A stretch of 64,000 nucleotides of DNA from assembly GCF_013155125.1 (NCBI RefSeq), contig NZ_CP053564.1, forward strand, positions 2,053,501-2,117,500, in the 5' to 3' direction. This DNA comes from Pseudonocardia broussonetiae. GTDB lineage: Bacteria > Actinomycetota > Actinomycetes > Mycobacteriales > Pseudonocardiaceae. Positions 1 to 52,948 of the stretch are shown piece after piece. The notes under the pieces were generated by a model. The model was given only the letters and a program-made list of their open reading frames with translations. It made no database searches and was not told the DNA's origin. Each line of letters opens with the position of its first letter. The first letter of the stretch is position 1. Position numbers and translations under genes: made by a program.

Positions 1-218
1 CCCTCGAGCTCGACCTTCCGCTTCGCGGCGGTCCAGGCCACCGCGATCGTGAAGCAGGAGGCGATCGAGGCCAGCAGCAGCTCGGTCGGCTGGGGCCCGG
101 AACCGGCGCCCCCGACCGACTCCGGCTCGTCGGAGACGACCTCGAAGCCGCCCGCGTCGACCTCGGCCCGCAGCCCGCCCGCCCAGCGCGCCGAGACGCT
201 CCGCTCGGTCGCGCTCAC
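1..218 (-). CDS. OsmC/Ohr-family protein, C-terminally truncated by the window edge
   Basis: About 72 N-terminal residues are present, starting with GTG at 218 and running off the left edge. The segment GPQPTELLLASIASCFTIAV matches the helix of OsmC-like proteins that carries the first catalytic cysteine (SC). This family reduces organic hydroperoxides or acts on other thiol-reactive compounds in the cytoplasm. The second catalytic cysteine lies outside the window, so the Ohr, OsmC or YhfA subgroup cannot be decided. It is divergent from the small ORF at 296. Confidence 0.75.
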   Translation of the reverse strand, partial: MSATERSVSARWAGGLRAEVDAGGFEVVSDEPESVGGAGSGPQPTELLLASIASCFTIAVAWTAAKRKVELE

Positions 219-295: not shown

Positions 296-640
296 ATGAC
301 CGCAGTAGCCCACGCCCCGCTCCGGCTGGTCACCTGCCGGGACGCCTGTCCGGCCGGACCGCGCCGGGCCCACCACGACCGCCTGCTGACCGTCGACACC
401 GACACCGACGCGCTGCTGGAGCTCATGGAGCTCGCCGTGACCTGGCACGAGCTCGATCATCCCCGCGAGCGCCTGGTACCGCCCGTGGAGTGGTCGACGT
501 TCGCCGAGCGGCACCACTGGGTCTGCCCGGAGCGGGCCGGGCAGGCGTTCCTGCTGGCGGTGGACGTCGTCGACCGCGGCGCTCCGCGACGGCGCGCACC
601 GCGGGGCCGGACGACGATGCTGGACCTGGTCACGGGCTGA
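296..640 (+). CDS. Small hypothetical protein (114 aa)
   Basis: ATG at 296 is preceded by a GGGAG ribosome-binding sequence. Third codon positions are almost all G or C, which supports real coding. No domain is recognised. The protein is hydrophilic, with an HELDHPRER segment near residues 60-68 and an arginine-rich end. It lies just upstream of the operator pair at 647-682, which belongs to the next gene. Its function is unknown and nothing ties it to the downstream regulon. Confidence 0.5.
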   Translation: MTAVAHAPLRLVTCRDACPAGPRRAHHDRLLTVDTDTDALLELMELAVTWHELDHPRERLVPPVEWSTFAERHHWVCPERAGQAFLLAVDVVDRGAPRRRAPRGRTTMLDLVTG

Positions 641-693: not shown

Positions 694-1479
694 GTGTCCG
701 ACACCGACTTCCTCGACCTCCCGACGCGGTCGGCCCGTCCGCGCGGCACCGGTCTCACGCACGTGCTCGACGGGGGCGCCGGCCCGTCCGCGGTGGACGA
801 CGTGCTCGCCGGGGCGGGCGCGCTGATCGACATCTGGAAGATCGGCTGGGGCACCGCGTACGTCGACGCGGCCCTTCCCCGCAAGGTCGCGGCGCTGACC
901 GCCGCCGGGGTCGACCTGTGCCTGGGCGGCACGCTGCTCGAGATCGCCTGGGCGCAGGGACGCGCCGCGGAGTGCCTGGCCTGGGCGCGCGACCGCGGCT
1001 TCGCCCGCGTCGAGGTCTCCCGCGGCACCGTGTCCATGTCGCTGCCGGAGAAGGCCGCGCTGATCGCGCGGGCGGCGCGCGACTTCTCGGTGCTCGCCGA
1101 GGTCGGGTCGAAGGCCCCGGGCGAGCTGCACGCCGCGCGGACGTGGCCGGCCGAGTGCCGCTCCGACCTCGACGCCGGCGCGACGCTCGTCGTCACCGAG
1201 GGCCGGCAGAGCGGCACCGTCGGCACGTTCGACGACCAGGGGCGCGTGCGCCCGGACGTCGTCGAGGCCGTGGCGTCCGCGGTGGGCGTCGAGCGGGTGG
1301 TGTTCGAGGCGCCGCGGGCGAGCCAGCAGGCGTGGTTCATCCGCCGGTTCGGGGCCGAGGTGAACCTCGGCAACATCACCCCGGGCGACGTCCTGTCGGT
1401 CGAGACGCTGCGGCTCGGGCTCCGGTCCGACACCGCGTCGCCGGCGGTGCGGGGCGCGGCGGGCGCGGAACCCGCGTGA
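694..1479 (+). CDS. comA: Phosphosulfolactate synthase, ComA/XcbB family
   Basis: This 261-residue TIM-barrel protein has the family signature GALIDIWKIGWGTAYV near residues 42-57 and LAEVGSK and VFEAPRASQQ further on. ComA enzymes add sulfite to phosphoenolpyruvate to give (R)-2-phospho-3-sulfolactate, the first step of coenzyme M synthesis in methanogens and of the bacterial CoM route. The GTG start at 694 follows the operator pair. The stop overlaps the next GTG (GTGA), so it heads a translationally coupled operon with two lyases and a PLP enzyme. That context favours a CoM-type product over a stand-alone sulfolactate route. Confidence 0.85.
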   Translation: MSDTDFLDLPTRSARPRGTGLTHVLDGGAGPSAVDDVLAGAGALIDIWKIGWGTAYVDAALPRKVAALTAAGVDLCLGGTLLEIAWAQGRAAECLAWARDRGFARVEVSRGTVSMSLPEKAALIARAARDFSVLAEVGSKAPGELHAARTWPAECRSDLDAGATLVVTEGRQSGTVGTFDDQGRVRPDVVEAVASAVGVERVVFEAPRASQQAWFIRRFGAEVNLGNITPGDVLSVETLRLGLRSDTASPAVRGAAGAEPA

Positions 1480-2402
1480 CGGCGGCCGCGCCGGCGGGCC
1501 CCAACTTCGTCCCGCTGCGCTACCGCGGGGTCGCCGTGTCGACGGTCCCGCGCGAGGTCGCGCTGGACGCGGAGTCCCTGCGCGCGCACTTCCTGGGCCG
1601 CGACGCCTACCGCCGTACGCGGTTCGTCGTCGCCCGCCACGACCCGGCCGTGCCCGGCCCGACCGCCGTGCTGCAGGTCGAGCGGGCGTCGCCGGAGCCG
1701 CTGTTCGCGCCGGTCGTGGACGTGCGGCTGCTCGCCGGGCCCGACGAGTGCGCCTACGTCGTCGATCCCGACGTCGACACCGGCATCCCCACCGCGCTGG
1801 CCGCCGCGGCCCGCGAGCACGCGCCCGGCGCGCGCGTCGTGGTGGTGGAGGGGCGCTACGCCCACGTCAACTTCATCCTGGAGCCCGCCGCGCTGCGGGT
1901 CGTGGTGCGCGACGTCGTGCCGCCGGAGCCGGGCAAGCTCGCCGACCAGGCCGCGCGCGTCGTCGCGGTGCTGGAGGACCTGGCGCCCGTGGAGCTCGTC
2001 GCGCGGTCGGTCCGGCTCGCCGACCTGGCCGCAGCCGCCCCGGCCCCGCACTACCTGCTCCCGTGCCGCGGCTCGGGCGGCGAGGTGCCCGGCGCGCGCG
2101 TGTCCTACCTCGACGAGCACCCCGAGCGCGCCGACTGGACCCTGCTGGGCTGCGCGCGCTCGCGCCAGATCCACCGGCACTTCTACGGCGAGGACCCGCC
2201 GACCGTCGACTTCTGCCCCAAGGCCGGGCTGCCCGGCACGCGCCCGCCCGAACCGGTGCTGACCAAGTGCTGCCTGCAGGAGGAGCACGTCGAGTCCGGC
2301 GACGGCTGGACGTCGGTGCCGTGGGGGGCGTCGCTGGAGATGGTGCGGACGGCGCTGCAGGGGCTCGTCGAGCGGGAGGCGCCGACGTGGCGACCCGGCT
2401 GA
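1476..2402 (+). CDS. Unknown cysteine-rich protein in the CoM-like operon (308 aa)
   Basis: I do not recognise this family. It starts with GTG at 1476, overlapping the comA stop, and its end overlaps the next gene by 16 bp, so it is a fixed member of the operon. The C-terminal half has cysteines at about 197 (LLPCRGSG), 226 (LLGCARSR), 247 (DFCPK) and 265/266 (TKCCLQ), plus IHRHFYGED between them. This arrangement could bind an Fe-S cluster or zinc, or supply redox thiols. The N-terminal half is an alpha/beta region without obvious motifs. No signal peptide or membrane segment is seen. A role in the sulfur-transfer or reductive step is a guess from position only. Confidence 0.8.
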   Translation: MTAAAPAGPNFVPLRYRGVAVSTVPREVALDAESLRAHFLGRDAYRRTRFVVARHDPAVPGPTAVLQVERASPEPLFAPVVDVRLLAGPDECAYVVDPDVDTGIPTALAAAAREHAPGARVVVVEGRYAHVNFILEPAALRVVVRDVVPPEPGKLADQAARVVAVLEDLAPVELVARSVRLADLAAAAPAPHYLLPCRGSGGEVPGARVSYLDEHPERADWTLLGCARSRQIHRHFYGEDPPTVDFCPKAGLPGTRPPEPVLTKCCLQEEHVESGDGWTSVPWGASLEMVRTALQGLVEREAPTWRPG

Positions 2403-3724
2403 CGACCTCGCGGCTGTACGCGCACCTGTGGGGCTCGCCGGAGACCGACGCCCTGTTCGACGAGGTCGCGATGCTGCAGCGCTGGCTCGACATCCTCGTC
2501 GCGCTGGCCCGCGCCCAGGAGCCCTCCGGCGTCGTGCCGCCCGGCACGGCCGACCGGCTGGCCGCGGCCGCCCGGGTCGAGGCGCTCGACCTCGGGTTCG
2601 TCGCCGAGCAGACGCGCGCCACCTCGCACTCGACGCTCGGCCTGATCCGCGGGCTGGCCCGGGTCCTGCCCGAGGACCTGCGCGAGCACGTCTACGTCGG
2701 CGCGACGGTGCAGGACCTCACCGACACCTGGTTCGGCACGGTGCTGCGCGACGTCGGCGACCTCGTCCGGCGCGACCTGCTCGCGTGCGAGGACCTGCTG
2801 CTCGCCCTGGCCGCCGAGCACCGCGACACCGTCATGGCCGGGCGGACCCACGGCCAGCCCGGCGCGCCGATCACGTTCGGGTTCAAGGTGGCGTCGTGGG
2901 CCGACGAGGTCCGCCGGCACCTCGACCGCCTCGACGAGGGCCGCGCCCGCTGGTGCGTCGGCCAGCTCGCGGGCGCCGTCGGCGCGCTGGCCTTCTTCGG
3001 CGCCGACGGCCCGGCGCTGCGCGGCCGCTTCTGCGCCGGGGTCGGGCTGGCCGACCCGGGGATGTCGTGGCTGACCGCGCGCGACCGCGTCGCGGAGTTC
3101 GGCACGGTCCTGGCGATGGTCTGCGGCACGCTGGCCCGGATCGGCGTGGAGGTCTACGAGCTGGCGCGCCCGGAGATCGGGGAGCTGGCCGAGCCGGCCG
3201 CGCCCGGGGCCGTCAGCAGCATCACGATGCCGCACAAGCGCAACCCCGAGACCGGCGAGCACCTCGACACGCTCGCGCGGCTGGCCCGCTCGTCGTCGGC
3301 GGTGCTGCTGGAGGGGATGGTCGGCGGGCACGAGCGCGACGGCCGGTCGTGGAAGGCGGAGTGGGTCGCGCTCCCCGAGGTGTGCCAGCTGACCGCGGCG
3401 GCGCTGCGGCTCGCGCGCGGCCTGCTCGGGGGCCTGGAGGTGCACCCGGAGGCGATGGCGGCGACCGTCGAGCGCTTCGGCGGGCTCGACAGCGAGCGGG
3501 TCCTCGCCGGGCTGTCGGTGCGGCTGGGCAAGCACCGCGCGCAGCAGGTGCTGCACGAGGTCCTGCGCGACGAGGGTGCCGAGCCCGCCGCCGCGCTGGC
3601 CGCGCGCGGCGTCGCGACGGCCGCGGAGGTGCGCGCCTGGGGCGCGGCCGGCGCCGTCGACGCCTGCGGCGCGATGGTCGACGCCGTGCTCGCGCGGGCC
3701 GCGCTCGCGCGGGGGCGGGCATGA
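2387..3724 (+). CDS. Aspartase/fumarase-superfamily lyase, adenylosuccinate lyase-like
   Basis: This 445-residue protein has the three conserved regions of the superfamily: TSHSTLGLIRG near residue 75, GRTHGQPGAPITFGFK near 152 and the signature SSITMPHKRNPETGEH near 275 with the catalytic serine loop. Relatives include adenylosuccinate lyase and 3-carboxymuconate cycloisomerase. In bacterial CoM synthesis two members of this superfamily eliminate phosphate from phosphosulfolactate to sulfoacrylate and then decarboxylate it, and the operon here has exactly two. Which enzyme does which step cannot be told by eye. The GTG start at 2387 is chosen for overlap with the upstream gene. Confidence 0.8.
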   Translation: MATRLTTSRLYAHLWGSPETDALFDEVAMLQRWLDILVALARAQEPSGVVPPGTADRLAAAARVEALDLGFVAEQTRATSHSTLGLIRGLARVLPEDLREHVYVGATVQDLTDTWFGTVLRDVGDLVRRDLLACEDLLLALAAEHRDTVMAGRTHGQPGAPITFGFKVASWADEVRRHLDRLDEGRARWCVGQLAGAVGALAFFGADGPALRGRFCAGVGLADPGMSWLTARDRVAEFGTVLAMVCGTLARIGVEVYELARPEIGELAEPAAPGAVSSITMPHKRNPETGEHLDTLARLARSSSAVLLEGMVGGHERDGRSWKAEWVALPEVCQLTAAALRLARGLLGGLEVHPEAMAATVERFGGLDSERVLAGLSVRLGKHRAQQVLHEVLRDEGAEPAAALAARGVATAAEVRAWGAAGAVDACGAMVDAVLARAALARGRA

Positions 3725-4683
3725 CGCCGCGGTTCCCCCTGGCCGTGCTGCCGACCCCGCTCGTGGAGGCGCCGCGGCTGAGCGCGGCGCTCGGCTGCGG
3801 GCCGCTGCTGGTCAAGCGCGACGACCTCGTCGGGTTCGGCGTCGCGGGCAACAAGGCGCGGCCGCTGGAGCACCTCGTCGGCGCGGCCCGCCTGGCCGGC
3901 GCGCAGGTGCTCGTCACCGGCGGCGGGCCCGGGTCCAACTTCTGCGCCGCCGCCGCGCTCGCCGCCCGCGTCGCCGGGATGCGCTGCGAGATCGTGCTGT
4001 GGGGCGACCCCGAGGGCGCCCCGAACGTCGCGCTCGCGCGGGCGGCGGGGGCGTGCGTCCGGCCGACCGGGCGGTCCGACCGCGAGGAGGTCGACGCGCT
4101 CGCCGCCGAGCGCGCCGCCGAGCTGACGGCGTCCGGGACGCCCGCGGTCGCGGTGCCGCGCGGCGGGTCCACCGCCGTGGGCGCCCTGGGCTTCGCCGAC
4201 GCCGCGGCCGAGCTCGCCGCGCAGCTGGCAGGCCGGCGGCCGTCGGCGGTCGTGCTGCCGGTCGGCTCCGGCGGCAGCGTCGCCGGGCTGCTGGCCGGGA
4301 TGGCGGAGTGCGGGCTCGACGTCCCGGTGGTCGGGGTGTCGGTGAGCAGGCCACCGGAGTCGGTGCGGGCCTCGGTGCTGGCGCTCGCGCGCGAGTGCGC
4401 GGCGCTGCGGGGGACCGTGCCGCCCGATCCCGCGCAGCTCCGCCTGGTCGACGCCCGCGGCCCCGGCTTCGGGCGCACCACCGCGCTCGAGGACGAGCGC
4501 GCCCGGCTCGCGCTGCACACCGAGGGCTGGCTGCTGGACACCACCTACGGCGCCGAGGCGTTCTCCGCCGCGGTCGACCTGCTGCTCGCCCACCCGCCGG
4601 ACCCGGTCCTGTGGTGGCACACCGGCGGCACCGTGCCCGCCGTGGCGCACATCGAGACGGCTCAGAGAGGAACGACCCCATGA
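3721..4683 (+). CDS. PLP-dependent D-cysteine desulfhydrase / ACC deaminase-family enzyme
   Basis: This 320-residue fold-type II PLP protein carries the Schiff-base lysine in VAGNKARPLEH (K45), the phosphate-binding PVGSGGSVAGLLAG loop and the terminal HTGGTVPAV of the D-cysteine desulfhydrase family. In the bacterial CoM pathway an enzyme of this type performs the thiolation step (named XcbE1 in Xanthobacter). The ATG at 3721 overlaps the previous stop (ATGA) and its own stop overlaps the next ATG. Without the neighbours it would be annotated as a cysteine desulfhydrase. The operon makes sulfur transfer to a sulfonate acceptor more likely. Confidence 0.85.
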   Translation: MTPRFPLAVLPTPLVEAPRLSAALGCGPLLVKRDDLVGFGVAGNKARPLEHLVGAARLAGAQVLVTGGGPGSNFCAAAALAARVAGMRCEIVLWGDPEGAPNVALARAAGACVRPTGRSDREEVDALAAERAAELTASGTPAVAVPRGGSTAVGALGFADAAAELAAQLAGRRPSAVVLPVGSGGSVAGLLAGMAECGLDVPVVGVSVSRPPESVRASVLALARECAALRGTVPPDPAQLRLVDARGPGFGRTTALEDERARLALHTEGWLLDTTYGAEAFSAAVDLLLAHPPDPVLWWHTGGTVPAVAHIETAQRGTTP

Positions 4684-6191
4684 CGATCCCGCAGGCCCGG
4701 GCCCGCCGGTCCCGGCCGGAGGGCTTCCCCCGCTCCGGCCCCGCGCCGGAGCTGATCGAGTCCGGCTTCGAGATCGAGAACGCCGACGCGGCGTTCCTGC
4801 ACCACGGCCTCAACCTGGCCGACCTCGCGCACGTCCTGGACCTGGCGCGGCGCGGGATCGTGCCGCCCGACGCCGAGCGCACGCTGCTGGCGCTGCTGCT
4901 CGACGTCTGCGACATCGCGCCCGAGGACTTCCCCTACGACCCCTCCTACGGCGAGCCCTACAACTCCCGCGAGCGCTACTTCGTCTCCCGCATCGGCGAC
5001 GTCGCCGGCTGGCTGCACGCCGGGCGCCCGCGGCGGGAGGCGGCCCGCGTCGCGCTGCGGCTGCACCTGCGCGCGGCGCTCGCCGAGCTCGTCGAGGAGG
5101 CCGTGCGGGCGTCGCTCGACCTCGTCGACCGCGCCGAGGAGCACGCCGCGACCCTGCTGCCCGACCAGACCTACCTGCAGCAGGCCCAGCCGTCGACGTT
5201 CGGGCACTACCTGCTCTCGTTCGTCTACCCCACCGTGCGCGACGCCCGCCGGCTGCTCGACGAGCTCGACGGCATCGACACGAGCCCGGGCGGGGCGGGG
5301 TGCGTCAACGGCACCCGGCTGCTGGAGGACCGCGCGCCGATCGCGGCCGCGCTGGGCTTCCGGTCGGTCATCCCGCACACCCGCGACGCCATGTGGCAGG
5401 TCGACGGGCTGGTGCACATCCTCGCCACCACCGCGAGCCTGCTGTCGAACTTCTCGAAGCTCGCCGAGGACCTGGAGATCTTCTCCTCCAGCGAGTTCGA
5501 CTTCGTCGACCTGGCCGACGCCTACAGCCGCTCCAGCATCCTCATGCCGCAGAAGCGCAACCCCTACGCGCTGGCGATCGTGCGCGGCGCGTCCGGGGTC
5601 GTGATCGGGCGCCTCACCGGCTTCCTCGCGGTGACCAAGAGCCCGTCGGCGCGCAGCGACAACCTGATCTTCGCCTACGGGGAGGTGCCGCGGGCGCTCG
5701 ACCTGGGCCTGCGGATCACCCGCCTGATGGGCGGGGTCGTGCGCACGCTGCGGGTCAACCCCGACCGGATGCGCGAGGAGCTCGACCGCGGCTACACCCA
5801 GGCCACCGACCTCGCCGAGCACCTCGTGGGGCTCGTCGGGGTCGACTACCGGACCGCGTACGTCGTCGTCGGCAACACGGTGCGCGCGGCGGCGCAGGCG
5901 GGCGTCCCGGGGGCGGCGATCACCGGCGGGATGCTCGACGACGCCGCGCGGGCCCACACCGGGCGCGACTGGGGCCTCGCCGACGTCGACCTCTCCGACG
6001 TGCTCGACCCGCGCTCGATCGTGGCGTCGCGGCGCGCGGAGGGCGGGGCGGCGCCCGACGCGGTGGCGGCGATGGTCGCCGACCTGCGCGTGACCCTCGA
6101 CGGGATCGGCGCCGCGGCCGCGGCGCGGACCGCGGGGTTCGCGGCGGCCGAGGACGAGCTGCTGGCCCGGGCGCGTGCGGGCGCCGGGTGA
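4680..6191 (+). CDS. Aspartase/fumarase-superfamily lyase, argininosuccinate lyase-like
   Basis: This 503-residue protein has GEPYNSRERYF near residue 90, QTYLQQAQPSTFGHYLL near 162 and the superfamily signature SSILMPQKRNPYALA near 284. These resemble argininosuccinate lyase, but the operon has no arginine genes. It is the second such lyase here and matches the two-lyase composition of the bacterial coenzyme M pathway. The ATG at 4680 overlaps the previous stop and has a GAGAGGAAC Shine-Dalgarno. It is the last gene of the operon and is convergent with the regulator at 6229. Confidence 0.85.
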   Translation: MTIPQARARRSRPEGFPRSGPAPELIESGFEIENADAAFLHHGLNLADLAHVLDLARRGIVPPDAERTLLALLLDVCDIAPEDFPYDPSYGEPYNSRERYFVSRIGDVAGWLHAGRPRREAARVALRLHLRAALAELVEEAVRASLDLVDRAEEHAATLLPDQTYLQQAQPSTFGHYLLSFVYPTVRDARRLLDELDGIDTSPGGAGCVNGTRLLEDRAPIAAALGFRSVIPHTRDAMWQVDGLVHILATTASLLSNFSKLAEDLEIFSSSEFDFVDLADAYSRSSILMPQKRNPYALAIVRGASGVVIGRLTGFLAVTKSPSARSDNLIFAYGEVPRALDLGLRITRLMGGVVRTLRVNPDRMREELDRGYTQATDLAEHLVGLVGVDYRTAYVVVGNTVRAAAQAGVPGAAITGGMLDDAARAHTGRDWGLADVDLSDVLDPRSIVASRRAEGGAAPDAVAAMVADLRVTLDGIGAAAAARTAGFAAAEDELLARARAGAG

Positions 6192-6228
6192 GCGGGTGCC
6201 GGCCGAGCGGGTGCCGGGTGAGCGGGTG

Positions 6229-6813
6229 TCAGCTCTCCGGCACGTCGACCGCGACGACCTCGACCGGCGCGTCGGAGGAGTTGCCGCAGCGGTGCTCCAG
6301 GCCGGACGGGAAGTGCAGGGCCTCGCCCGCGGCGACCTCGTAGCGGTCGGCGGCCACCTCGACGTCGAGCCGGCCCTCCAGCACGATCAGCAGCGTCTCG
6401 CCCGCGCGGCGCAGCCCGGGGCGCTGCTCGCCGGGCTCGAGCCGGGCGACGGTGCCGCGCGCCCGGAAGCGGTCGGGCGACCCGGTGATCGTGACGGGGC
6501 CGGCGGCGATCCCGTCGGCGAAGCGCGTGAGCACGGCGGTCGGGGCGGTGTCGTCGTCCTCGACGAAGTGCCGGATCGGCGCGCCCAGGGCTCCGGCGAT
6601 CTTGAGCAGCGTCGTGATCGTGGGGACCATGTCGCCGCGCTCGACCTTGTGCACCGACGCCGTGGAGACCTCCGCGGCGCGGGCCAGCTGCTGCAGCGTC
6701 ATGCCCCGCTCCAGGCGGAGCGCCCGGACCTTGGGCCCGATCGACCCCACCACGTCCTCCCACGCCGACGGCGCCTCCGGCACGGCGACGGCGGCGAGCG
6801 GATCGCTGGGCAT
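6229..6813 (-). CDS. XRE-type regulator with C-terminal cupin domain; candidate master regulator
   Basis: This 194-residue protein has a helix-turn-helix at about residues 25-80 (MTLQQLARAAEVSTASVHKVERG) and a cupin at about 120-190 (RRAGETLLIVLEGRLDVEV ... FPSGLEHRCGN). XRE-cupin proteins are one-component regulators whose cupin binds a small effector. The start at 6813 is chosen over a longer ORF because GGAGG sits just upstream. It is divergent from the flavoprotein gene with the operator pair 6845-6880 between them, so it probably binds that element and controls itself and the other operator-bearing promoters (inference). Confidence 0.85.
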   Translation of the reverse strand: MPSDPLAAVAVPEAPSAWEDVVGSIGPKVRALRLERGMTLQQLARAAEVSTASVHKVERGDMVPTITTLLKIAGALGAPIRHFVEDDDTAPTAVLTRFADGIAAGPVTITGSPDRFRARGTVARLEPGEQRPGLRRAGETLLIVLEGRLDVEVAADRYEVAAGEALHFPSGLEHRCGNSSDAPVEVVAVDVPES

Positions 6814-6844
6814 CGGTCCTCCACGTGGTTGACAGCACACCGCG

Positions 6845-6880
6845 TTCTAGTATCGTAGAAATCTGTTCCTGATAGGAAAA
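6845..6880. promoter_or_regulatory. Tandem operator pair between the XRE-cupin regulator and the flavoprotein operon
   Basis: TTCTAGTATCGTAGAA (6845-6860) is followed by GTTCCTGATAGGAAAA (6865-6880, core TTCCTGATAGGAA). Centres are 20 bp apart, or two helical turns. It lies in the divergent promoter region, 32 bp upstream of the regulator start and 56 bp from the GTG at 6936. The same pair with identical spacing is present at 647-682 and 13549-13584. Confidence 0.75.
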
Positions 6881-6935
6881 CTTCTGCGTCTCGGAACCTG
6901 CCCAGGGTAGGGCGCTGCAGCGAAAGGGTCCCGAC

Positions 6936-8291
6936 GTGTCAGCAGCACCGCGGCGAACTGTCGTGATCGGAGGGGGCGCCGCAGGACTGGGCGCCGCCGG
7001 TGGGGTGAAGGCCGCCGACCCCGGGGCCGAGGTGATCGTCTACACCGAGTTCGAGGACGTCGCCTACAGCCCCTGCGGCATCCCCTACGTCCACGGCGGC
7101 GAGATCCCCGACTTCGAGCGGCTGTTCCTGGCCGGCAAGCAGGCCTACGTCGACGCCGGCATCGACGTCCGCTACGAGACGGCCGTGACCGCGATCGACC
7201 CGGCCGCGCACACCGTCACGGTGGCGGGCGAGGGCGCGGTCCGCTACGACTCCCTCGTCATCGCCACCGGCTGGAACTACGCCGACCCCGGCGTCCCCGG
7301 CGGGGACCTCTCGGGCCTCTACTACGTCAAGAACATCCGCAAGGCCATGGAGTGGGACAAGGTCATCTCCGAGACCAAGGCGGCGGTGGTCGTCGAGGCC
7401 GGGCCGCTGGGCCTGGAGATGGTCACGGCGCTGGCCCACCGCGGCGTCGAGACCCACCTGATCGACCCCAACCCCTACGCCCTGTCGATGATGGCCGACC
7501 CCGACATCATGGCCCCGGTCGAGGAGTCCTGGCGCGAGCTCGGCGTGCACCTGCACTTCAACACCACGCTCGAGGAGTTCCTGGGCGACGCCGACGGCAA
7601 GGTCCGCGCCGTCCGCACGTCGGGCGGGGAGATCACCGCCGACCTCGTCGTCATCTCCACCCACAAGACGCCCGAGACCGCGCTGGCGAAGGCCGCGGGC
7701 CTCGACCTCGGCTCCACCGGCGCGATCATCGTCGACGAGCGGATGAAGACCTCCGCGCCCGACGTCTGGGCGGCGGGCGACGTCGTCGAGATCCCGCACG
7801 GCCTCACCCGCACGCCGCTGCAGGGGCTGACCGGCTCGCACGCCTACGCCCAGGGCAAGACGGCCGGCACCAACGCCGGCGGCGGCGACCGCGCCTACCG
7901 CGCGGTCTACGTCCCCTGGGGCACCCCGGCCGGGAAGTGGGTGATCGGTGGCGCGTCCTTCGGCGAGGCCACGGCCACCGCGCTCGGCATCCCCTACGTC
8001 AAGGGCGAGGCGCAGGGCATCTCGCGCGCCCGCTACTACCCGGGCGTGCAGCCGGTGAAGGTCAAGCTGCTCGCCGAGCCGGGCACGCTGCGGCTGATCG
8101 GCGCGCAGATGATCGGCGGCGGCGAGGGCATCAAGGAGCGCGCCGACTTCCTCGCCCAGGCGATCCGGTTCGGCATGACGCTGCACGACCTGTCGACGAT
8201 GGAGAACGTCTACTCGCCCGCCATCGGCGCGCTCAACGAGCCGATCGTGGTGGCGGCGACCAACGGCGTCGCCGCGGCGAAGGCGAAGTAG
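6936..8291 (+). CDS. FAD/NAD(P)-dependent CoA-disulfide-reductase-like oxidoreductase
   Basis: This 451-residue protein has the FAD motif VVIGGGAAGLGAAGG at residues 9-23, the single active-site cysteine in YSPCGIPY (C47) typical of CoA-disulfide and persulfide reductases, and VWAAGDVVE near 280. The second nucleotide-binding motif is degenerate: VVVEAGPLGLEM replaces the usual GGGxxG. The family reduces disulfides or persulfides of low-molecular-weight thiols using a flavin and one cysteine. The last step of bacterial CoM synthesis is a reduction, so this co-regulated enzyme is a good candidate for it or for recycling the thiol (inference). The GTG start is preceded by GAAAGGG. Confidence 0.85.
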   Translation: MSAAPRRTVVIGGGAAGLGAAGGVKAADPGAEVIVYTEFEDVAYSPCGIPYVHGGEIPDFERLFLAGKQAYVDAGIDVRYETAVTAIDPAAHTVTVAGEGAVRYDSLVIATGWNYADPGVPGGDLSGLYYVKNIRKAMEWDKVISETKAAVVVEAGPLGLEMVTALAHRGVETHLIDPNPYALSMMADPDIMAPVEESWRELGVHLHFNTTLEEFLGDADGKVRAVRTSGGEITADLVVISTHKTPETALAKAAGLDLGSTGAIIVDERMKTSAPDVWAAGDVVEIPHGLTRTPLQGLTGSHAYAQGKTAGTNAGGGDRAYRAVYVPWGTPAGKWVIGGASFGEATATALGIPYVKGEAQGISRARYYPGVQPVKVKLLAEPGTLRLIGAQMIGGGEGIKERADFLAQAIRFGMTLHDLSTMENVYSPAIGALNEPIVVAATNGVAAAKAK

Positions 8292-8296
8292 CGGCG

Positions 8297-8557
8297 ATGG
8301 CGTCCTTCTTCGGCTGGCTGCGCAGCAACTCCGAGCACTACCTGCTGGTGGCCGCGCACCAGAAGCTGGCCCGCACCCTCGGCTCGCCGCCGCCGCGGCC
8401 GCCGAAGGGGCTCAAGGAGCTCTTCTGGCTGCGCGTGTTCGCCCCCGTCTACGCCCTGCTCCCGTGGCCGGTCCGCAGCCGCATCATGCGCGCCATGCCC
8501 GGCAGCCACCGCCAGACCTGGGCGCCACCGCCCCGGTCGCGAGGACCTGCGGTCTGA
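8297..8557 (+). CDS. Small unknown protein (86 aa)
   Basis: ATG at 8297 lies 5 bp after the stop of the flavoprotein gene in the same operon. Codons show the strong G/C third-position bias. The sequence is basic and aromatic ([22 protein letters not shown] at the start, [22 protein letters not shown] in the middle), which suggests an amphipathic or membrane-associated peptide with a proline-rich break. I know of no family. A subunit or membrane anchor for the flavoprotein is possible but unsupported. Confidence 0.6.
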
Positions 8558-8600: not shown

Positions 8601-9086
8601 GTGGCTCAGATCATCGGCGAGCGCCCGAACACCGGCGACGTCATCGTCGACTACGACGAGAAGCTGTTCGACGACATCCAGGCCAACGAGGGCGAGAAGG
8701 CCTACATCTTCATGCACACCGTGCCCTACGAGGGCTCGGTCGGCTTCGTGAACATGCTGACCGCCACCCGGATCAACCGGAAGGGCTTCGACACCAGCAT
8801 GGTGCTCTACGGCCCCGGCGTGCTCATGGCGTCGGCGACGCGCGGCTTCCCGACCGTGGGCGCCGAGGCCTTCCCCGGCCACATGAACTTCAACAACCAG
8901 CTCGGCACGTTCATGAAGGAGGGCGGCAAGGTCTACGCCTGCCGCTTCGCGATGGCCGCGCTCTACGGCATGCGCGAGACCGACCTCATCGACGGCGTCA
9001 AGCCGATGCACCCGCTCGACGTGCTCGACGCGACCCTGACCGCCCGCCGCGAGGGCGCGCTCGTCCTGCAGACCTGGACCCTCTAG
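8601..9086 (+). CDS. MSMEG_0572/Sll0783-family nitrogen-starvation protein (Nit1C-associated)
   Basis: This 161-residue protein has [23 protein letters not shown], a METS-like YGPGV loop and [15 protein letters not shown], the pattern of the Sll0783 family, which has a DsrE-like fold. It is a standard member of Nit1C clusters, which are linked to cyanide or nitrile nitrogen assimilation, and of a nitrogen-starvation response in Synechocystis. The conserved cysteine in ACRFAMAA (near residue 114) may be functional. GTG at 8601 follows an AAGGAGAA Shine-Dalgarno. Its biochemical role is not established. Confidence 0.85.
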
Positions 9087-9153: not shown

Positions 9154-9783
9154 GTGAACCCGTTCGCGTCCCCCCTGGCCGCCCCCGGACCCGCCGACGT
9201 CGACGCGTGGCGCAGCCGGTGGAGAGCGGCCGGCGAGGCCCTGTTCCCCACCCTGATGACCGACCCGCCGTCCTACGCCGGGGCGGTGGAGACGATCGGC
9301 GCGCTGGCGGCGGAGCTCGGCCGCCGCCGCGCCGACCTGCCTGCGCTCGTCGCGGCCATGACCGACCCGGACGCGTTCCTGGCCGAGTGCGGGCGCCGTC
9401 CCAGCGCCGTGCCGGCGACCCTGCTCGTCGGGGTCGCGTGCGGGATGCGCGAGCGCGACCTGATCGCCGAGGAGGTCCGCGCCGGCCACCGCAGCGCCAT
9501 CGAGCGCTCGCGCGCGGCCGGGGAGGCGTGGGCCGTGCTGGGCGGCCCGGAGGCGATCGAGGACGTGACGGGCGGGGCCAGCGGCGTCGCCTGCTGCACC
9601 CACCTGCACATCCCCTCCGGCGTCGAGATCCGCGCGAGCGTCGACGCCTGGTCGCCGGAGCCCTACCGGATCGACGTCATCGAGCCCGGGGTGCTGCCGC
9701 CGCGCGGGGGGTCGTTCACCCGCCGCGAGCCCTGGATCGCGGAGTTCCACCGCGTCCGCGCCGAGATCGGGGGCAGCCCGTGA
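9154..9783 (+). CDS. Unknown protein between Nit1C genes (209 aa)
   Basis: The GTG at 9154 follows a GGAGGTG sequence. The stop overlaps the GTG of the acetyltransferase gene (GTGA), which shows it is a true operon member. The N-terminal 130 residues are helical. The last part has GGASGVACCTHLHIPSGVEIR around residues 137-157 with a vicinal cysteine pair and a histidine, then a beta-rich end. No family is recognised. It may be a lineage-specific component of this Nit1C-like system. Confidence 0.75.
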   Translation: MNPFASPLAAPGPADVDAWRSRWRAAGEALFPTLMTDPPSYAGAVETIGALAAELGRRRADLPALVAAMTDPDAFLAECGRRPSAVPATLLVGVACGMRERDLIAEEVRAGHRSAIERSRAAGEAWAVLGGPEAIEDVTGGASGVACCTHLHIPSGVEIRASVDAWSPEPYRIDVIEPGVLPPRGGSFTRREPWIAEFHRVRAEIGGSP

Positions 9784-10283
9784 CCACCGCCCGGCCGCTG
9801 GCCCCTCCTCCGGTCCCGTCCCCGCCGCCGGTCGACCCGGTGGCGCGGGAGTCCTGCCGCCTCGTCGCCGACGCCGCCGACCTCGACGCCCATCACGCGG
9901 TCCGCCGCACGGTGTTCGTCGAGGAGCAGAGCGTCTTCGCCGGGACCGACCGCGACGACCGCGACGACGACCCCCTCACGCTGCACGTCCTCGGCCTGGT
10001 TGACGGCCGCCCGGCGGGCAGCGTCCGGCTCTACCCGATCGGGCCGGGGCGGTGGAAGGGCGACCGGCTCGCGGTGCTGCCCGGCCGCCGCGCCGGGCGG
10101 CTGGGCATCGCGCTCGTCCGCTTCGCCGTGGCCACGGCCGCCGCGCGCGGGGGCGACCGGATGGTCGCGCTCGTCCAGCAGCCCAACGAGGTCTTCTTCC
10201 GCAGGCTGGGGTGGGAGCGGCTCGCCGAGCCGCAGCTCTACGTCGGGATCCCGCACGTGCGGATGGACATCGGGCTGCGCTGA
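9780..10283 (+). CDS. GNAT N-acetyltransferase, MSMEG_0567/Sll0786 family (Nit1C)
   Basis: This protein of about 167 residues begins at GTG 9780. The GNAT core is visible: HHAVRRTVFVEEQSVF, VLGLVDGRPAGSVRLYP, KGDRLAVLPGRRAGRLGIALVRF (acetyl-CoA loop) and NEVFFRRLGWERL. Proteins of this type recur in Nit1C clusters next to the Sll0783 and radical SAM proteins. The substrate is unknown and could be an amine or amino group generated in the pathway. It is the last gene of the 6936-10283 operon and is convergent with the large regulator. Confidence 0.85.
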   Translation: MTTARPLAPPPVPSPPPVDPVARESCRLVADAADLDAHHAVRRTVFVEEQSVFAGTDRDDRDDDPLTLHVLGLVDGRPAGSVRLYPIGPGRWKGDRLAVLPGRRAGRLGIALVRFAVATAAARGGDRMVALVQQPNEVFFRRLGWERLAEPQLYVGIPHVRMDIGLR

Positions 10284-10315: not shown

Positions 10316-13300
10316 TCAGCGCGTCCGCGGCGCCGGCAGCACCAGGCGCCCCCCGGCGGCGAACGACTCGCGCGCGGCGGCGGGCAGGGCCGCGGCGATC
10401 CGGTCGAGCGCCGCCGCGCGGTCGGCGGGCGCGCCGAGCTGCGCGGTCAGCAGGTCCGACCGCGTGCCGGTGGCGATCCGCGCGGCCTCCTCGGGCCGCC
10501 CGAGGTGGTGCAGGGCGAGCGCCTCGTACTTGGGTGAGGAGTGGCGCCGGGCCACGTCGAGCAGGCGCTCGGCCTCCGAGGCGTCCCAGCGCGCCCGCAT
10601 CTCGACCAGGCGCATCGTGGCCCGCGGCCGGAAGGGCAGCGAGCGCTCCAGCATCGGGCCGGCCTCCTCGACCGCGGCGGCGGCGTCGTCGGGGCGGCCC
10701 AGCATGAGGTCGCAGTCGGCCACGGCGAGCAGCGCGTGGAGCTCCTGCTCGAGCTCCAGCGCCCCGCCGCCGCGGTGCGCGAGCTCGACGGCCCGCACGG
10801 CGTGCTCGCGGGCGCGCTCGACCTGGCCCAGCTCCTGCCACATCCACGACGTCGTCGTCTCGATGCCGGCGCGGTAGAAGCCGAGGTTCTCCGCGTCGAT
10901 CAGGCGGCGCGCGTTGTCCAGCGAGCGCAGGGCGCCCGCGAAGTCGCCGGTGTCGCCGCGGGCGAGCGCGGTGAAGAACAGGGTCTGCAGCAGCGGCCGG
11001 AACTCCCCGGTGCGCCGGCACAGCACCGCGGCCCTGGCCAGGACGGAGCGGGCCTCGTCGAAGCGGTCCTGGTGCTGGAGCAGCGCGCCGCGGTAGGCCA
11101 GTGCGATGGCGGTGGTCGCGTCCTCGCCCGACGCCGAGAGGACCTCGTCGTAGGCCGCGGCGGCGCCGGCGTAGTCGCCGTCCCAGTGCCGGACCCGGCC
11201 CAGCAGCAGCGTGGCGGTCGGCAGCGCGCGCGGGGCGGCCGCCGCCGACTCGGCGAGGTGGGTGGCCTGCTCGGCGAAGTCGACGGCGACGGCGGCGTCG
11301 CGGGCGTAGAACGCGGTCCAGCCCAGCTGCTCCAGCGCCTGCGCCTCCAGCTCGAGGTCGCCCAGCTCGCGCGCCAGCGCCAGCGCGCGCTCGTGGTCCT
11401 CGTGGGCGTCGCCGGGGCGGCCCAGGTCGCGCCGGACCTGCCCGCGCCGCAGGTGCACCGCCACGAGCTGCGCGGTGTCGCCGCCGGCCGTCGCGGCCTC
11501 GACGGCGCGGTCGAGCAGCCGCTCGGCGTCGGTGTGGGCGAACGAGACGTCGGCGGCGTCGGCGGCGGCGAGCCAGGCCCGGGCCGCGCCCCGCGGGTCG
11601 TGCGCGGCCGCCAGGTGCAGGGCCGCGGCCTCGGGCCGGTCGGCGAGCAGGCGGGCCGCGCGGCGGTGGCGGTTGACCCGGACGGGCTCGGGCACCGACT
11701 CGTAGGCCACGCGCCGGACGATGTCGTTGGCGAAGCGGAACGTGTCGCCCTGCACGGTGAGCAGGCCCGCGCGCATCGCGCGGTCCGCGCGCGACGCGCA
11801 GTCCTCGACGTCGAGCCCGGACAGCGCGGCCACGTCGTCGAGCACGACGGTGGTGCCGAGCGTGGCGCACTGGGCGAGCAGGTGCGCGACGGCGTCGCCC
11901 GCGTGGTCGAGCCGGGCGGCGACGGCGTCGTGCAGCGTCGGGGGGACGGCGGGCGGGTCGTCGGGGGCGGCCGGGTCGACGGGCAGGCGCAGCAGCTCGG
12001 AGAGGAACAGCGGCGAGCCGCCCGTCCACGACCACACCCGCCCGGGGTCGTGCCCGCGCCCGCAGCGCTCGACGAGCACGGCGACGTCGGCGCGGGTCAG
12101 CGGCCCCAGCGGGATCCACGACGCGAGGTCGCGCAGCTGCGCGGTGACGACCGGGGACTCGTCGGTGCGCTCGGTGAGCAGCAGCAGCACGCGGCTGCCC
12201 TGCCAGTGCGCGGCCAGCACGTGCAGCGCCTCCACCGTGGACTGGCTCGCGTGCTGGACGTCCTCGACGACGAGCAGCACCGGCGCCCGGGCGCCGAGCC
12301 GGGTGAGGAACCCGCTCACCGCGTCGACGCTGCGGCGGTGCTCGACCTCCGGCGCGGCCCGCTCGTAGGGCACCGGTCCGACCAGGTCCGACAGCTCGGG
12401 GACGAGCTCCACCAGCGTCCCCAGCCGCGCCCCGGCCAGCTCGCGGACCTCGGCGGGAGGCGTCCGGTGCACGACCGCCCGGACGAGGTCGACGAGCGGC
12501 TGCAGGTACAGCGACCGCTCGGCCTCGAAGCAGGTGGCCTCGACGACCTGCGCGCCGGCGTGGCGGACCTCCGCGGTGAGCGCGGCGGCCAGCGCGGTCT
12601 TGCCGATCCCCGCCTCGCCGGTGAGCACCGTCAGCACCGGGGTGCCGGCCGCGGCGGACGCCCAGAGGTCGCGCAGCCGCCCGAGCTCGGCGTCGCGACC
12701 GACGAGCCCGGGCGCGGCGGGGGCGGCCGGCGCAGGCGGGGCCGCCGGCCGGTTCTCCGCCCGCAGGACGGCGAGGTGCAGGGCCTGCGTCGCCGGGGAG
12801 GGGTCGATGCCGAGGTGCTCGGCCAGCGACTCGCGCAGCGACCGGTAGGCCAGCAGGGCGTTGCCGGGCCGGCCCGCGCGCTGGTGGGCGAGCATGACGG
12901 TGCGGCACGCGCCCTCGTCGAAGGGGTCGAGGTGCAGCACGGCCGCGGCGACCTGGGCGGCCGTGTCGACGGCGCCGAGCTCCAGCGACGCGGCCGCCCA
13001 CGCGGTACGGGCGCGGTGCAGCAGCTCGCCGACCGAGCGGCGCAGCTCGCGCACCCAGCGGTCCTCGTGCTCCCCGGCCAGTGCGACGTCGGCGTCGAGG
13101 AGCTTGGCGGCCTGCTCCCCGCTGGTCGACGCCAGGGCGAAGCGGCCCCGGCCGAGCTCCAGCTCCGCGGTGGCGACGAGGTCGGCGGCCTCCAGCAGGT
13201 CGACCGCGGCGAGGTCGGCGGGCATCCGGTACCCGGCGGCGGAGCCCTCGATGAGCGCGCGGCCCAGCGCCCGGCGCAGACGGCTGATCAGCGCGGCGAC

Positions 13301-13546
13301 GTTGCGGTCCGCCCGGTCGGGCGGGTGGTCCTCCCACAGCGCGTCGACCAGGTGCTCGATCGGCACGAACTCGCCCCGGCGCGCGGCGAGCACGGCGAGG
13401 ACCCGACGGGCCTTCCCGACGGGCACGTGTCCGGAGAGCTCACCCTCGACGGTGAAGGGGCCGAGCAGGCAGAGCCGCAGGGGCTGACCCACCTGGCGGA
13501 CTCTACCCGGGCCGATCGGCGCTGACGGGGGAGGTTGTCCGCGCAT
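10316..13546 (-). CDS. Large AfsR/SARP-type regulator: winged HTH, BTAD, AAA ATPase, TPR-like C-terminus
   Basis: The protein has up to 1076 residues. Residues 22-110 form an OmpR-like winged helix and 115-265 a BTAD domain. A Walker A GEAGIGKT sits at 310-317 and VLLVVEDVQHAS is a Walker B. The C-terminal 450 residues are helical repeats. Such SARP-STAND proteins activate nearby clusters. The nominal start at 13546 directly abuts the operator at 13549-13564, so the gene is either leaderless or starts at a downstream GTG such as 13492. It lies within the regulon and is divergent from the carbamate kinase operon, which suggests it is under the same operator. Confidence 0.85.
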   Translation of the reverse strand: MRGQPPPSAPIGPGRVRQVGQPLRLCLLGPFTVEGELSGHVPVGKARRVLAVLAARRGEFVPIEHLVDALWEDHPPDRADRNVAALISRLRRALGRALIEGSAAGYRMPADLAAVDLLEAADLVATAELELGRGRFALASTSGEQAAKLLDADVALAGEHEDRWVRELRRSVGELLHRARTAWAAASLELGAVDTAAQVAAAVLHLDPFDEGACRTVMLAHQRAGRPGNALLAYRSLRESLAEHLGIDPSPATQALHLAVLRAENRPAAPPAPAAPAAPGLVGRDAELGRLRDLWASAAAGTPVLTVLTGEAGIGKTALAAALTAEVRHAGAQVVEATCFEAERSLYLQPLVDLVRAVVHRTPPAEVRELAGARLGTLVELVPELSDLVGPVPYERAAPEVEHRRSVDAVSGFLTRLGARAPVLLVVEDVQHASQSTVEALHVLAAHWQGSRVLLLLTERTDESPVVTAQLRDLASWIPLGPLTRADVAVLVERCGRGHDPGRVWSWTGGSPLFLSELLRLPVDPAAPDDPPAVPPTLHDAVAARLDHAGDAVAHLLAQCATLGTTVVLDDVAALSGLDVEDCASRADRAMRAGLLTVQGDTFRFANDIVRRVAYESVPEPVRVNRHRRAARLLADRPEAAALHLAAAHDPRGAARAWLAAADAADVSFAHTDAERLLDRAVEAATAGGDTAQLVAVHLRRGQVRRDLGRPGDAHEDHERALALARELGDLELEAQALEQLGWTAFYARDAAVAVDFAEQATHLAESAAAAPRALPTATLLLGRVRHWDGDYAGAAAAYDEVLSASGEDATTAIALAYRGALLQHQDRFDEARSVLARAAVLCRRTGEFRPLLQTLFFTALARGDTGDFAGALRSLDNARRLIDAENLGFYRAGIETTTSWMWQELGQVERAREHAVRAVELAHRGGGALELEQELHALLAVADCDLMLGRPDDAAAAVEEAGPMLERSLPFRPRATMRLVEMRARWDASEAERLLDVARRHSSPKYEALALHHLGRPEEAARIATGTRSDLLTAQLGAPADRAAALDRIAAALPAAARESFAAGGRLVLPAPRTR

Positions 13547-13613: not shown

Positions 13614-14594
13614 ATGCCCAGAACCGTCGTCGTCGCTCTCGGGGGCAACGCCATCACCCGCAGCGGCGAGAGCGGCACCCACGCCGAGCAGACGGCCAAC
13701 GCCCGCGCCATGGCCGAGGCCGTCTGCCGCATGCGCGACGCCGGCTGGAACGTCGTCGTCGTGCACGGCAACGGCCCCCAGGTCGGCAACCTCGCCATCC
13801 AGCAGGAGGAGGCCGCGCACCGGGTGCCGGAGATGCCCCTGTACTGGCTCGGCGCGATGAGCGAGGGCCAGCTGGGCTGCCTCATCACCCTCGCGCTGCA
13901 CGAGGCGGGCGGCGGGGACCTGCCCGGCGTCGTCGCCGTCGTCACGCACATGGTGGTCGACGCCGACGACCCCGCGTTCGCGCGGCCGACCAAGCCGATC
14001 GGCCCCTTCCTCGACGAGGACACCGCGCGCCGCCACGCCGCCGAGCGCGGCTGGACCGTCGGGGAGGACGCGGGGCGCGGCTGGCGCCGGCTCGTCGCCT
14101 CGCCCGAGCCGCGCCGGATCGTCGAGATCGACGACGTCCGCGCCCTGGTCGACCGCGGGTCGGTCGTCGTCGCGGCGGGCGGCGGCGGCATCCCCGTGGT
14201 GCAGGCCGGGCACGTGCTGCGGGGTGTCGACGCCGTCGTCGACAAGGACCTCGCGGCCGAGAAGCTGGCCAGCACGCTCGGTGCCGACGTCCTCATGCTG
14301 GTCACGGGCGTGCCGCGGGTGATGCTGGACTTCGGCACGCCGCGGGCCCGTGACGTCGGCGAGATGACCACCGACGAGGCGCTGGGGCACGCCGCGGCCG
14401 GGCAGTTCCCGGAGGGCAGCATGGGCCCCAAGATGCGGGCGGCCACCCGGTTCGTCCAGGCCACCGGCGGCACCGCGGTCGTCACCGACGTCGAGCACGC
14501 CTGCGCGTCGCTCGCCGGCGGTGCCGCGGCGGGCACCCGCATCGTCCCCACCCGCATCGTCCCCACCGCAGCGAGCGTCGGAGCGGCATCGTGA
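13614..14594 (+). CDS. arcC: Carbamate kinase
   Basis: This 326-residue protein has VVVALGGNAI at residues 4-13, HGNGPQVGNL near 44, GGGGIPVV near 190, DKDLAAEKLA near 210 and EGSMGPKMRAA near 268, all standard carbamate kinase motifs. It transfers phosphate from carbamoyl phosphate to ADP, releasing ammonia and CO2 through carbamate. ATG at 13614 is preferred over the upstream in-frame start inside the operator. It overlaps fdrA. Together with FdrA and DUF1116 it suggests a catabolic carbamoyl-phosphate source rather than arginine deiminase, which is absent from the window. Confidence 0.9.
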   Translation: MPRTVVVALGGNAITRSGESGTHAEQTANARAMAEAVCRMRDAGWNVVVVHGNGPQVGNLAIQQEEAAHRVPEMPLYWLGAMSEGQLGCLITLALHEAGGGDLPGVVAVVTHMVVDADDPAFARPTKPIGPFLDEDTARRHAAERGWTVGEDAGRGWRRLVASPEPRRIVEIDDVRALVDRGSVVVAAGGGGIPVVQAGHVLRGVDAVVDKDLAAEKLASTLGADVLMLVTGVPRVMLDFGTPRARDVGEMTTDEALGHAAAGQFPEGSMGPKMRAATRFVQATGGTAVVTDVEHACASLAGGAAAGTRIVPTRIVPTAASVGAAS

Positions 14595-32199: not shown

Positions 32200-32211
32200 G
32201 ATCCGCTCCCG

Positions 32212-33048: not shown

Positions 33049-33100
33049 CGCTCCTCCTCGAACGTCGGTGGTCGGACTCGAACGCCAGGTGGTTCGGCCG

Positions 33101-33919: not shown

Positions 33920-34061
33920 GATCACCACCCCGATCCGTCCGGAATCGTTTCTCCGCGTGCGGTTCTTCGCCGCCCTTGTCCGATCCCCGGGTGAGGTGTA
34001 ACACGATGGGGGGACGGCCCCAAGTCGTTGCCGAACGGATCCGTGCGAATCGAGGCGGTCG

Positions 34062-51268: not shown

Positions 51269-51276
51269 TGACGACG

Positions 51277-52946: not shown

Positions 52947-52948
52947 GC

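Follow-up and report, generated by a model that had tools for sequence, protein, structure and literature searches.

Coenzyme M-type genes linked to nitrile hydratase, Nit1C-like and FdrA/AllG genes in Pseudonocardia broussonetiae and related loci

Bacterial genes for the synthesis of coenzyme M (CoM) have so far been read as a marker of alkene or epoxide metabolism, and the available part of PMC11507031 reports CoM genes only from methanogens and alkene users. What purpose such genes serve where no alkene or epoxide pathway is apparent is a question raised by a 64,000-nucleotide stretch of Pseudonocardia broussonetiae DNA (contig NZ_CP053564.1, positions 2,053,501 to 2,117,500; referred to here, at its full length, as the window), in which a CoM-type operon lies beside nitrile hydratase and Nit1C-type genes. 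A first-pass annotation of this DNA had proposed that the operon makes CoM or a related sulfonate thiol for the adjacent nitrile/Nit1C pathway. It had named the CoM, nitrile and Nit1C components, and had left FdrA, AllG, carbamate kinase, the XcbA family and a second Nit1C-like set in the genome unnamed. The host genome (7.29 Mb, 98.5% complete) carries a single ComA and a single XcbA.

Positions 694 to 6191 of the forward strand encode relatives of all five bacterial CoM proteins in one operon, in which adjacent genes overlap by 4 to 16 bases. In order, these are as follows (PLP, pyridoxal phosphate):

694..1479, forward strand: ComA/XcbB, (2R)-phospho-3-sulfolactate synthase family (PF02679, 258.8 bits; cut-off, 25.2)
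1476..2402, forward strand: XcbA-family protein, DUF7714 (NF052538, 327.4 bits; cut-off, 150; also PF24830)
2387..3724, forward strand: XcbD-like enzyme of the aspartase/fumarase superfamily (NF052536, 552.7 bits, under the cut-off of 600)
3721..4683, forward strand: XcbE-like PLP enzyme of the D-cysteine desulfhydrase family (NF052537, 207.3 bits, well under the cut-off of 450)
4680..6191, forward strand: XcbC-like enzyme of the aspartase/fumarase superfamily (NF052535, 426.4 bits, under the cut-off of 575)

The coordinates, families and overlapping order previously given for ComA, the two lyases and the PLP enzyme are confirmed by this analysis. The protein encoded after ComA had been described as unknown and Cys-rich; the cysteines stand, as five are invariant across 25 aligned rows, and the protein belongs to a named family. 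Against the archaeal equivalog model TIGR03849, the window ComA scored 223.8 bits, under the cut-off of 280, as did ComA of Nocardioides JS614 (204.9). The Xcb models were the top NCBIfam match for each of XcbD, XcbE and XcbC, all below the curated cut-offs, and the lyases and PLP enzyme did not cluster with unrelated pathways; clustering of that kind had been named beforehand as evidence that would refute a CoM role. Among control strains with epoxide-type loci, Xanthobacter Py2 clears the XcbC, XcbD and XcbE cut-offs (523.1 bits for XcbE), while JS614 and Mycolicibacterium chubuense NBB4 are both under the cut-offs for XcbC (331.9 and 395.9, respectively, each lower than the window's score) and XcbE (313.2 and 328.4); for XcbD, JS614 passes (687.6) and the annotated, shortened protein of NBB4 does not (531.9). 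As JS614 and NBB4 also miss some of the three cut-offs, the cut-offs are narrow and the window XcbC is no outlier. Judged by these scores, XcbE is the most divergent member of the operon. The operon is best explained as a bacterial CoM pathway whose lineage is separate from that of alkene/epoxide metabolism, with CoM itself as the predicted product. A match to the XcbA family, under the cut-off, was also seen in Methanosarcina acetivorans.

To what could this product be supplied? In keeping with the first-pass annotation, references for epoxyalkane CoM transferase (EaCoMT) and alkene monooxygenase found no match in the window at E <= 1e-3, and at the same threshold the sole match there to 2-ketopropyl-CoM carboxylase/oxidoreductase (2-KPCC) was the reductase encoded at 6936-8291 (24%). 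Genome-wide, no EaCoMT was found at E <= 1e-60, the best match having 71 bits and 30% identity; the top EaCoMT-like matches, recognized by eye, are methionine-synthase-like proteins, one of them encoded beside a metK-like gene. The best genome-wide match to 2-KPCC had 91.6 bits and 30% identity, and the class A loci described below match at 51 to 53%. No epoxide consumer therefore stands out elsewhere in the genome, with EaCoMT and 2-KPCC searched genome-wide and alkene monooxygenase in the window only.

To place the operon among its relatives, the best 80 of 184 XcbA relatives, ranked by how closely they match an alignment headed by the window protein, were taken as related loci; the closest named relative by XcbA among these is from P. 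oceani (96% identity). Class labels were assigned with tblastn (E <= 1e-8; coverage of at least 35%), using window proteins and annotated plasmid proteins as references. Class B loci have two or more of the strict class B markers (an AIR-synthase-like protein [AIRS], radical SAM, GNAT, MSMEG_0572, AllG, FdrA in two forms, carbamate kinase, nitrile hydratase alpha or beta, and Nit1) and zero class A markers; class A loci have EaCoMT, 2-KPCC or an associated flavoprotein (alkene monooxygenase also being permitted) and zero class B markers. Fifty loci fell into class B, 16 into class A, none into both and 14 into neither, class B being over-represented because loci were chosen by similarity to a window-led XcbA alignment. 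Eleven class A loci carry EaCoMT (71 to 86% identity) or 2-KPCC (51 to 53%), and five rest on the flavoprotein, which is found alone in L056, L077 and L078 and with a 30 to 34% EaCoMT-like match in L052 and L065. Six of the 14 loci outside both classes have one class B marker and eight have none; among the 14, L009, L010 and L017 are longer than 15 kb and contain OsmC-type genes, with L010 and L017 also harboring the reductase and 86-amino-acid (aa) protein genes described below, all three gene types lying outside the strict marker list.

Within the locus DNA examined, AIRS was found in 38 of the 50 class B loci, GNAT in 34, AllG in 33, MSMEG_0572 in 31 and carbamate kinase in 15. Nitrile hydratase or Nit1 was found in 23. 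Each of these was absent from all 16 class A loci. By phylum, the class B loci comprise 44 from Actinomycetota, three from Pseudomonadota, two from Acidobacteriota and one from Bacillota, many of them in metagenome-assembled genomes (MAGs). The proposed genomic tie of CoM genes to nitrile/Nit1C genes thus holds beyond the window, as it recurs with FdrA/AllG in Actinomycetota, Pseudomonadota and Acidobacteriota, and genomic evidence gives good support to a second lineage of CoM genes with ties to nitrile/carbamoyl metabolism. Named strains carrying it belong to Pseudonocardia, Actinomycetospora, Nocardioides, Kribbella, Nonomuraea, Sphingobium and Methylocystis.

The two classes are also separated by phylogeny. 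In an XcbA tree of 85 rows, made by a quick method and labeled with 19 class A rows (including plasmid loci L003, L004 and L006) and 52 class B rows (including L005 and the window), the labels need a single change and the separating branch has an SH-aLRT support of 98. One change is also needed in each of the XcbD and XcbE trees, and two in each of the ComA and XcbC trees. Positions conserved at 90% or more in both classes number 44 in ComA, 92 in XcbD, 45 in XcbE and 99 in XcbC; eight positions are class specific in each of XcbD and XcbE, most of them weakly, and one weak position is class specific in each of ComA and XcbC.

A second sample comprised 390 genomes of the family of the window, Pseudonocardiaceae. 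XcbA was identified in 56 of these, in bands of at least 379 bits (16 genomes) and at most 348 bits (41 genomes, one being in both), the 370-bit split having been fixed after the table was seen. EaCoMT (E <= 1e-60) was present in 14 genomes, all high band, and in none of the 40 low-band-only genomes. AllG was found in 37 of the 41 low-band genomes and in 18 of the 349 others (Fisher, 1.3e-33, a value that ignores shared ancestry), and lay within 25 kb of XcbA on the same contig for 28 of the 41 low-band copies. Exceptions were four low-band genomes without AllG (G034, G036, G032 and G287), two high-band genomes without EaCoMT (G093 and G283) and three with AllG and only high-band XcbA (G283, G303 and G317); a further 15 genomes have AllG without XcbA.

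The other genes of the cluster, which extends to 24.1 kb, are listed below. L099 denotes a stretch extending upstream of the window, L100 the second Nit1C-like set of the genome, and L101 a plasmid stretch of Methylocystis iwaonis; genes were clustered over 85 stretches, the window's own included.

1..218, reverse strand: OsmC-like protein, gene start only, the remainder preceding the window (L099:8820-9218; PF02566, 76.8 bits)
296..640, forward strand: 114-aa protein between OsmC and comA, no Pfam or NCBIfam match (relatives in 35 of 85 stretches)
6229..6813, reverse strand: helix-turn-helix/cupin regulator (PF01381 and PF07883; relatives in 36 of 85 stretches)
6936..8291, forward strand: CoA-disulfide-reductase-like flavoprotein with one cysteine, in YSPCGIPY (TIGR03385, 247.7 bits, under the cut-off of 578.8)
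8297..8557, forward strand: conserved protein of 86 aa, encoded between the reductase and MSMEG_0572 genes, no family match
8601..9086, forward strand: MSMEG_0572/Sll0783 (DsrE-like) Nit1C-type protein (TIGR04044, 236.8 bits; cut-off, 109.85)
9154..9783, forward strand: 209-aa protein conserved among class B loci, matching neither Pfam nor NCBIfam
9780..10283, forward strand: MSMEG_0567-family GNAT, NitE type (TIGR04045, 108.9 bits; cut-off, 68.45)
10316..13492, reverse strand: large regulator
13614..14594, forward strand: carbamate kinase, ArcC/AllK type (NF009007, 274.9 bits; cut-off, 266; TIGR00746, 351.7 bits, just under 358.25)
14591..16126, forward strand: FdrA/AllF (NF004760, 411.7 bits, under the cut-off of 433; structure 3dmy, "Protein fdrA," 244 bits)
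16123..17286, forward strand: MSMEG_0565-family glycosyltransferase (TIGR04047, 356.6 bits; cut-off, 259.85)
17294..17689, reverse strand: nitrile hydratase accessory protein (TIGR03889, 71.9 bits; cut-off, 46)
17686..18288, reverse strand: nitrile hydratase alpha with the motif VCTLCSC (TIGR01323, 301.2 bits; cut-off, 249.85)
18285..18953, reverse strand: nitrile hydratase beta (TIGR03888, 188 bits; cut-off, 152.2)
19007..20413, reverse strand: AllG, DUF1116 (PF06545, 222.8 bits)
20543..21667, forward strand: MSMEG_0568-family radical SAM, NitD type (TIGR04043, 383 bits; cut-off, 303.7)
23087..24058, reverse strand: AIRS, sll0787 type, NitF type (TIGR04049, 238.7 bits, under the cut-off of 321.3)

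OsmC-type genes occur in 41 of the 50 class B loci and the 86-aa gene in 32, both being absent from all 16 class A loci; a Methylocystis relative of the latter stands in the same order. The disulfide reductase had been described as a single-cysteine protein, and the protein called at 6936-8291 does contain one Cys; such genes are present in 31 of 50 class B loci, with a different subtype in 12 of 16 class A loci. For the 209-aa protein (9154..9783), 20 aligned relatives share five invariant columns, and the structural model (predicted local distance difference test, pLDDT, 93.7) has a helical N-terminal part and a beta C-terminal part, with no informative fold match. AIRS matched solved structures weakly (PurL, 44.9 bits; SelD, 32.5 bits; HypE 2z1e, 28.8 bits), and it also matches the methanogenesis marker 2 model TIGR03267 (152.6 bits, under the cut-off of 365). 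Three genes for nickel pincer cofactor synthesis, larE, larB and larC (L099:6139-8827), adjoin the cluster on its upstream side, just outside the window; LarE-type genes occur in 22 of the 85 clustered stretches, and the host genome has no LarA/Lar_N match. Farther downstream, three consecutive short-chain dehydrogenase/reductase-type proteins are encoded at 31387-33928 (one of them scanned against families), which we take to resemble mycofactocin-type dehydrogenases, and 50726-53857 resembles an ectABCD ectoine/hydroxyectoine operon, as judged from protein starts.

The Nit1C-type genes are found in two settings. The Nit1 (Nit6803-type) reference had no match in the window. A nitrilase-superfamily gene lies outside it, 3.6 kb before comA (L099:5285-6088); its product has 24% identity to Nit1 and no TIGR04048 match at E 1e-4, is 73% identical to the copy in the second set (L100:9661-10473), and among the 80 related loci found a partial match in L023 only. 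That second set comprises MSMEG_0572 (52%), radical SAM (48%), a GNAT-AIRS fusion, a glycosyltransferase and the nitrilase-superfamily gene, which has 24% identity to Nit6803-type Nit1 and falls well short of the NCBIfam cut-offs. A Nit6803-type Nit1 adjoins the class B CoM operon in Methylocystis, Nitrobacter and Sphingobium; the two copies scanned, from L005 and L071, scored 572.5 and 557.2 bits against TIGR04048 (cut-off, 502.6). The four proteobacterial class B rows stood apart from the other 21 in a radical SAM tree (support, 98), in which the one outside row, from the second set of the genome, was on a long branch. The Methylocystis radical SAM protein shares 70 to 75% identity with the majority of the other listed plasmid copies, which come mainly from Rhizobium, Agrobacterium and Methylorubrum, and many of the copies listed adjoin annotated Nit6803 nitrilases. 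On this tree, class B CoM genes appear linked to two radical SAM lineages, the proteobacterial one being of the Nit1C type that goes with Nit6803 nitrilases. The M. iwaonis plasmid has the order reductase (60% identity to the window), 86-aa protein (45%), MSMEG_0572 (67%) and AllG (54%). From the gene content of actinobacterial and proteobacterial loci, the two settings have FdrA/AllG and Nit1C-type genes in common as partners, with nitrile hydratase and Nit1 alternating. Beside the reductase/MSMEG_0572/AllG genes of this plasmid lies a cydAB set with a DUF2474 gene (L101:10054-12489), for which no match was found near the other loci examined; bd oxidases of this kind can be cyanide insensitive. 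The accessible text of PMC11049912 describes Nit1C as required for growth of Pseudomonas on cyanide, and the term coenzyme M does not occur in that text.

For the FdrA, AllG and carbamate kinase genes, a reaction is described in the accessible part of PMC11326118: AllFGH of Escherichia coli, encoded with carbamate kinase, interconverts oxalurate plus phosphate and oxamate plus carbamoyl phosphate, and was assayed using carbamoyl phosphate and oxamate as substrates. The host genome gave no match to the AllH model PF11392 (the E. coli control being positive) and none to the AllH of L033; AllH-type genes cluster in 27 related loci (one representative scanned).

Taken with the conserved linkage, these assignments suggest that the CoM-type product of the operon probably serves the adjacent nitrile hydratase/Nit1C-like/FdrA-AllG-carbamate kinase pathway. 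Nitrile hydratases produce amides, and one that bears its carbamoyl group on sulfur or nitrogen and not on carbon would connect such an enzyme to AllFGH. Because conversion of an amide to carbamoyl phosphate requires the carbamoyl carbon to be on a heteroatom, a thiol cofactor that passes from S-CN to S-C(O)NH2 is proposed. The likeliest form of this, though still tentative, is that CoM might act as the carrier thiol of cyanide/nitrile nitrogen assimilation through an S-cyano/S-carbamoyl mechanism, with putative substrates and a putative order of steps. The CoM thiol would carry a one-carbon nitrogen unit: oxidized CoM, generated as a disulfide or sulfenate with the participation of the OsmC-type protein, might combine with cyanide, or with a nitrile that releases it, and yield CoM-S-CN; hydration of this to S-carbamoyl-CoM would fall to nitrile hydratase or, in Proteobacteria, to Nit1; FdrA/AllG, with AllH where present, would phosphorolyse the latter to carbamoyl phosphate and free CoM; and carbamate kinase would convert carbamoyl phosphate to ATP, ammonia and CO2. 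CoM disulfide could be reduced by the CoA-disulfide-reductase-like flavoprotein. Cyanide reacts with oxidized thiols, and HypE provides a precedent for S-carbamoyl/S-cyano chemistry.

A number of observations weigh against this assignment. The second Nit1C-like set of the genome has no CoM genes within the 15 kb read, and XcbA is missing from at least 507 of the 513 plasmid records that carry a close relative of the Nit1C radical SAM protein; as XcbA is in at most six of the 513, Nit1C as such needs no CoM. AllH, which is required in E. coli, is missing from the host genome. The proteobacterial partner Nit1 would, as a nitrilase, give an acid and ammonia, not an amide, and the reductase of the P. 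dioxanivorans group is without any cysteine (L017:14931-16262, L018:14917-16251 and L027:9386-10720). The thiol product could also be another sulfonate, as XcbE has diverged, including at class-specific positions, of which F74/W and W299/L stand out: its 207 bits lie far from the cut-off of 450 and under the scores of JS614 and NBB4 (313 and 328), and an XcbE match is absent from seven of the 50 class B loci. Five of these are not cut there, namely, four Acidimicrobiia MAGs (L066, L068, L069 and L080) and a Bacillota MAG (L038, also without an XcbC match), while L070 and L083 end after XcbD. These XcbE data favor the view that a different sulfonate thiol, or a thiol-free sulfonate, is made and used by the adjacent pathway, which is conceivable but rather unlikely, given that ComA and XcbC each have at most one weakly class-specific position against 44 and 99 in common, and that all 50 class B loci have ComA and XcbD and 47 have XcbC.

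The cluster might instead run in a biosynthetic direction, in which carbamate kinase and FdrA/AllG carbamoylate a sulfonate thiol, AIRS dehydrates the product to a nitrile or thiocyanate (HypE-like chemistry), the GNAT, radical SAM and glycosyltransferase enzymes tailor a small metabolite or cofactor, and nitrile hydratase is a turnover enzyme. GNAT, radical SAM, AIRS and glycosyltransferase are indeed atypical of a simple catabolic route, AIRS has its weak similarity to HypE, and the AllFGH assay started from carbamoyl phosphate and oxamate (PMC11326118, as available). The same text has AllFGH and AllK as catabolic in E. coli, however, the experiments in the accessible part of PMC11049912 tie Nit1C to cyanide assimilation, and AIRS matches HypE less well than PurL or SelD, making this direction unlikely. 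That CoM is a protective or redox thiol, buffering cyanide or electrophiles with no carrier role, fits the OsmC-type and disulfide-reductase-like genes that accompany the CoM genes in 41 and 31 of the 50 class B loci, respectively, but would leave the linkage with FdrA, AllG and carbamate kinase unexplained; actinobacteria moreover have mycothiol, and we consider this role improbable. Hardest to sustain is the notion that the true consumer is an epoxide/alkene pathway encoded at another place in the genome, with the nitrile genes as bystanders. It draws on the description of bacterial CoM genes only for alkene/epoxide users (PMC11507031, in its available part) and on the three of 390 genomes in which AllG accompanies high-scoring XcbA only. 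EaCoMT at E <= 1e-60 is lacking here and in the 40 low-band-only genomes, the top 2-KPCC match has just 30% identity, and the CoM-nitrile linkage spans phyla; this very improbable alternative is largely refuted by the genome-wide EaCoMT and 2-KPCC results, with alkene monooxygenase searched in the window only.

Service of the CoM-type product to the nitrile hydratase/Nit1C-like/FdrA-AllG pathway is therefore the reading retained here. The enzyme families involved are known, whereas their combination appears new and conserved and its function is predicted. No paper on CoM in nitrile metabolism was found among open-licence papers, and one under subscription could exist. A second lineage would break the rule that bacterial CoM genes mark alkene/epoxide metabolism, would give some Nit1C-type genes a cofactor and would supply a concrete substrate hypothesis for FdrA/AllG proteins beyond allantoin breakdown. 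If CoM is indeed the carrier thiol of cyanide/nitrile nitrogen assimilation, it would gain a third role besides methanogenesis/anaerobic alkane use and epoxide metabolism.

Compared with known systems, the window shares its CoM protein families with the xcb operons of Xanthobacter autotrophicus Py2, JS614 and NBB4, and the order comA-xcbA-xcbD-xcbE-xcbC of the latter two is identical to its own, with many positions in common. It differs from them in its separate branch of the XcbA tree, its divergent XcbE, its linked nitrile, FdrA/AllG and carbamate kinase genes and the absence of EaCoMT, 2-KPCC and alkene monooxygenase neighbors. With the Nit1C cluster (nitBCDEFGH) of cyanide assimilation it shares the MSMEG_0572, radical SAM, GNAT, AIRS and glycosyltransferase families; unlike that cluster, it lacks a Nit6803-type nitrilase and has nitrile hydratase, CoM genes, FdrA/AllG and carbamate kinase. 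AllG and carbamate kinase, together with an FdrA that matches the E. coli structure 3dmy, recall the AllFGH-AllK system of the E. coli allantoin pathway, but the genome is without AllH and nitrile hydratase and CoM genes stand alongside. The nitrile hydratase most resembles the cobalt type, with alpha, beta and accessory proteins all above their cut-offs and the cobalt-containing 4ob1 as the top solved match; it is in its genomic partners that it differs from the known enzymes.

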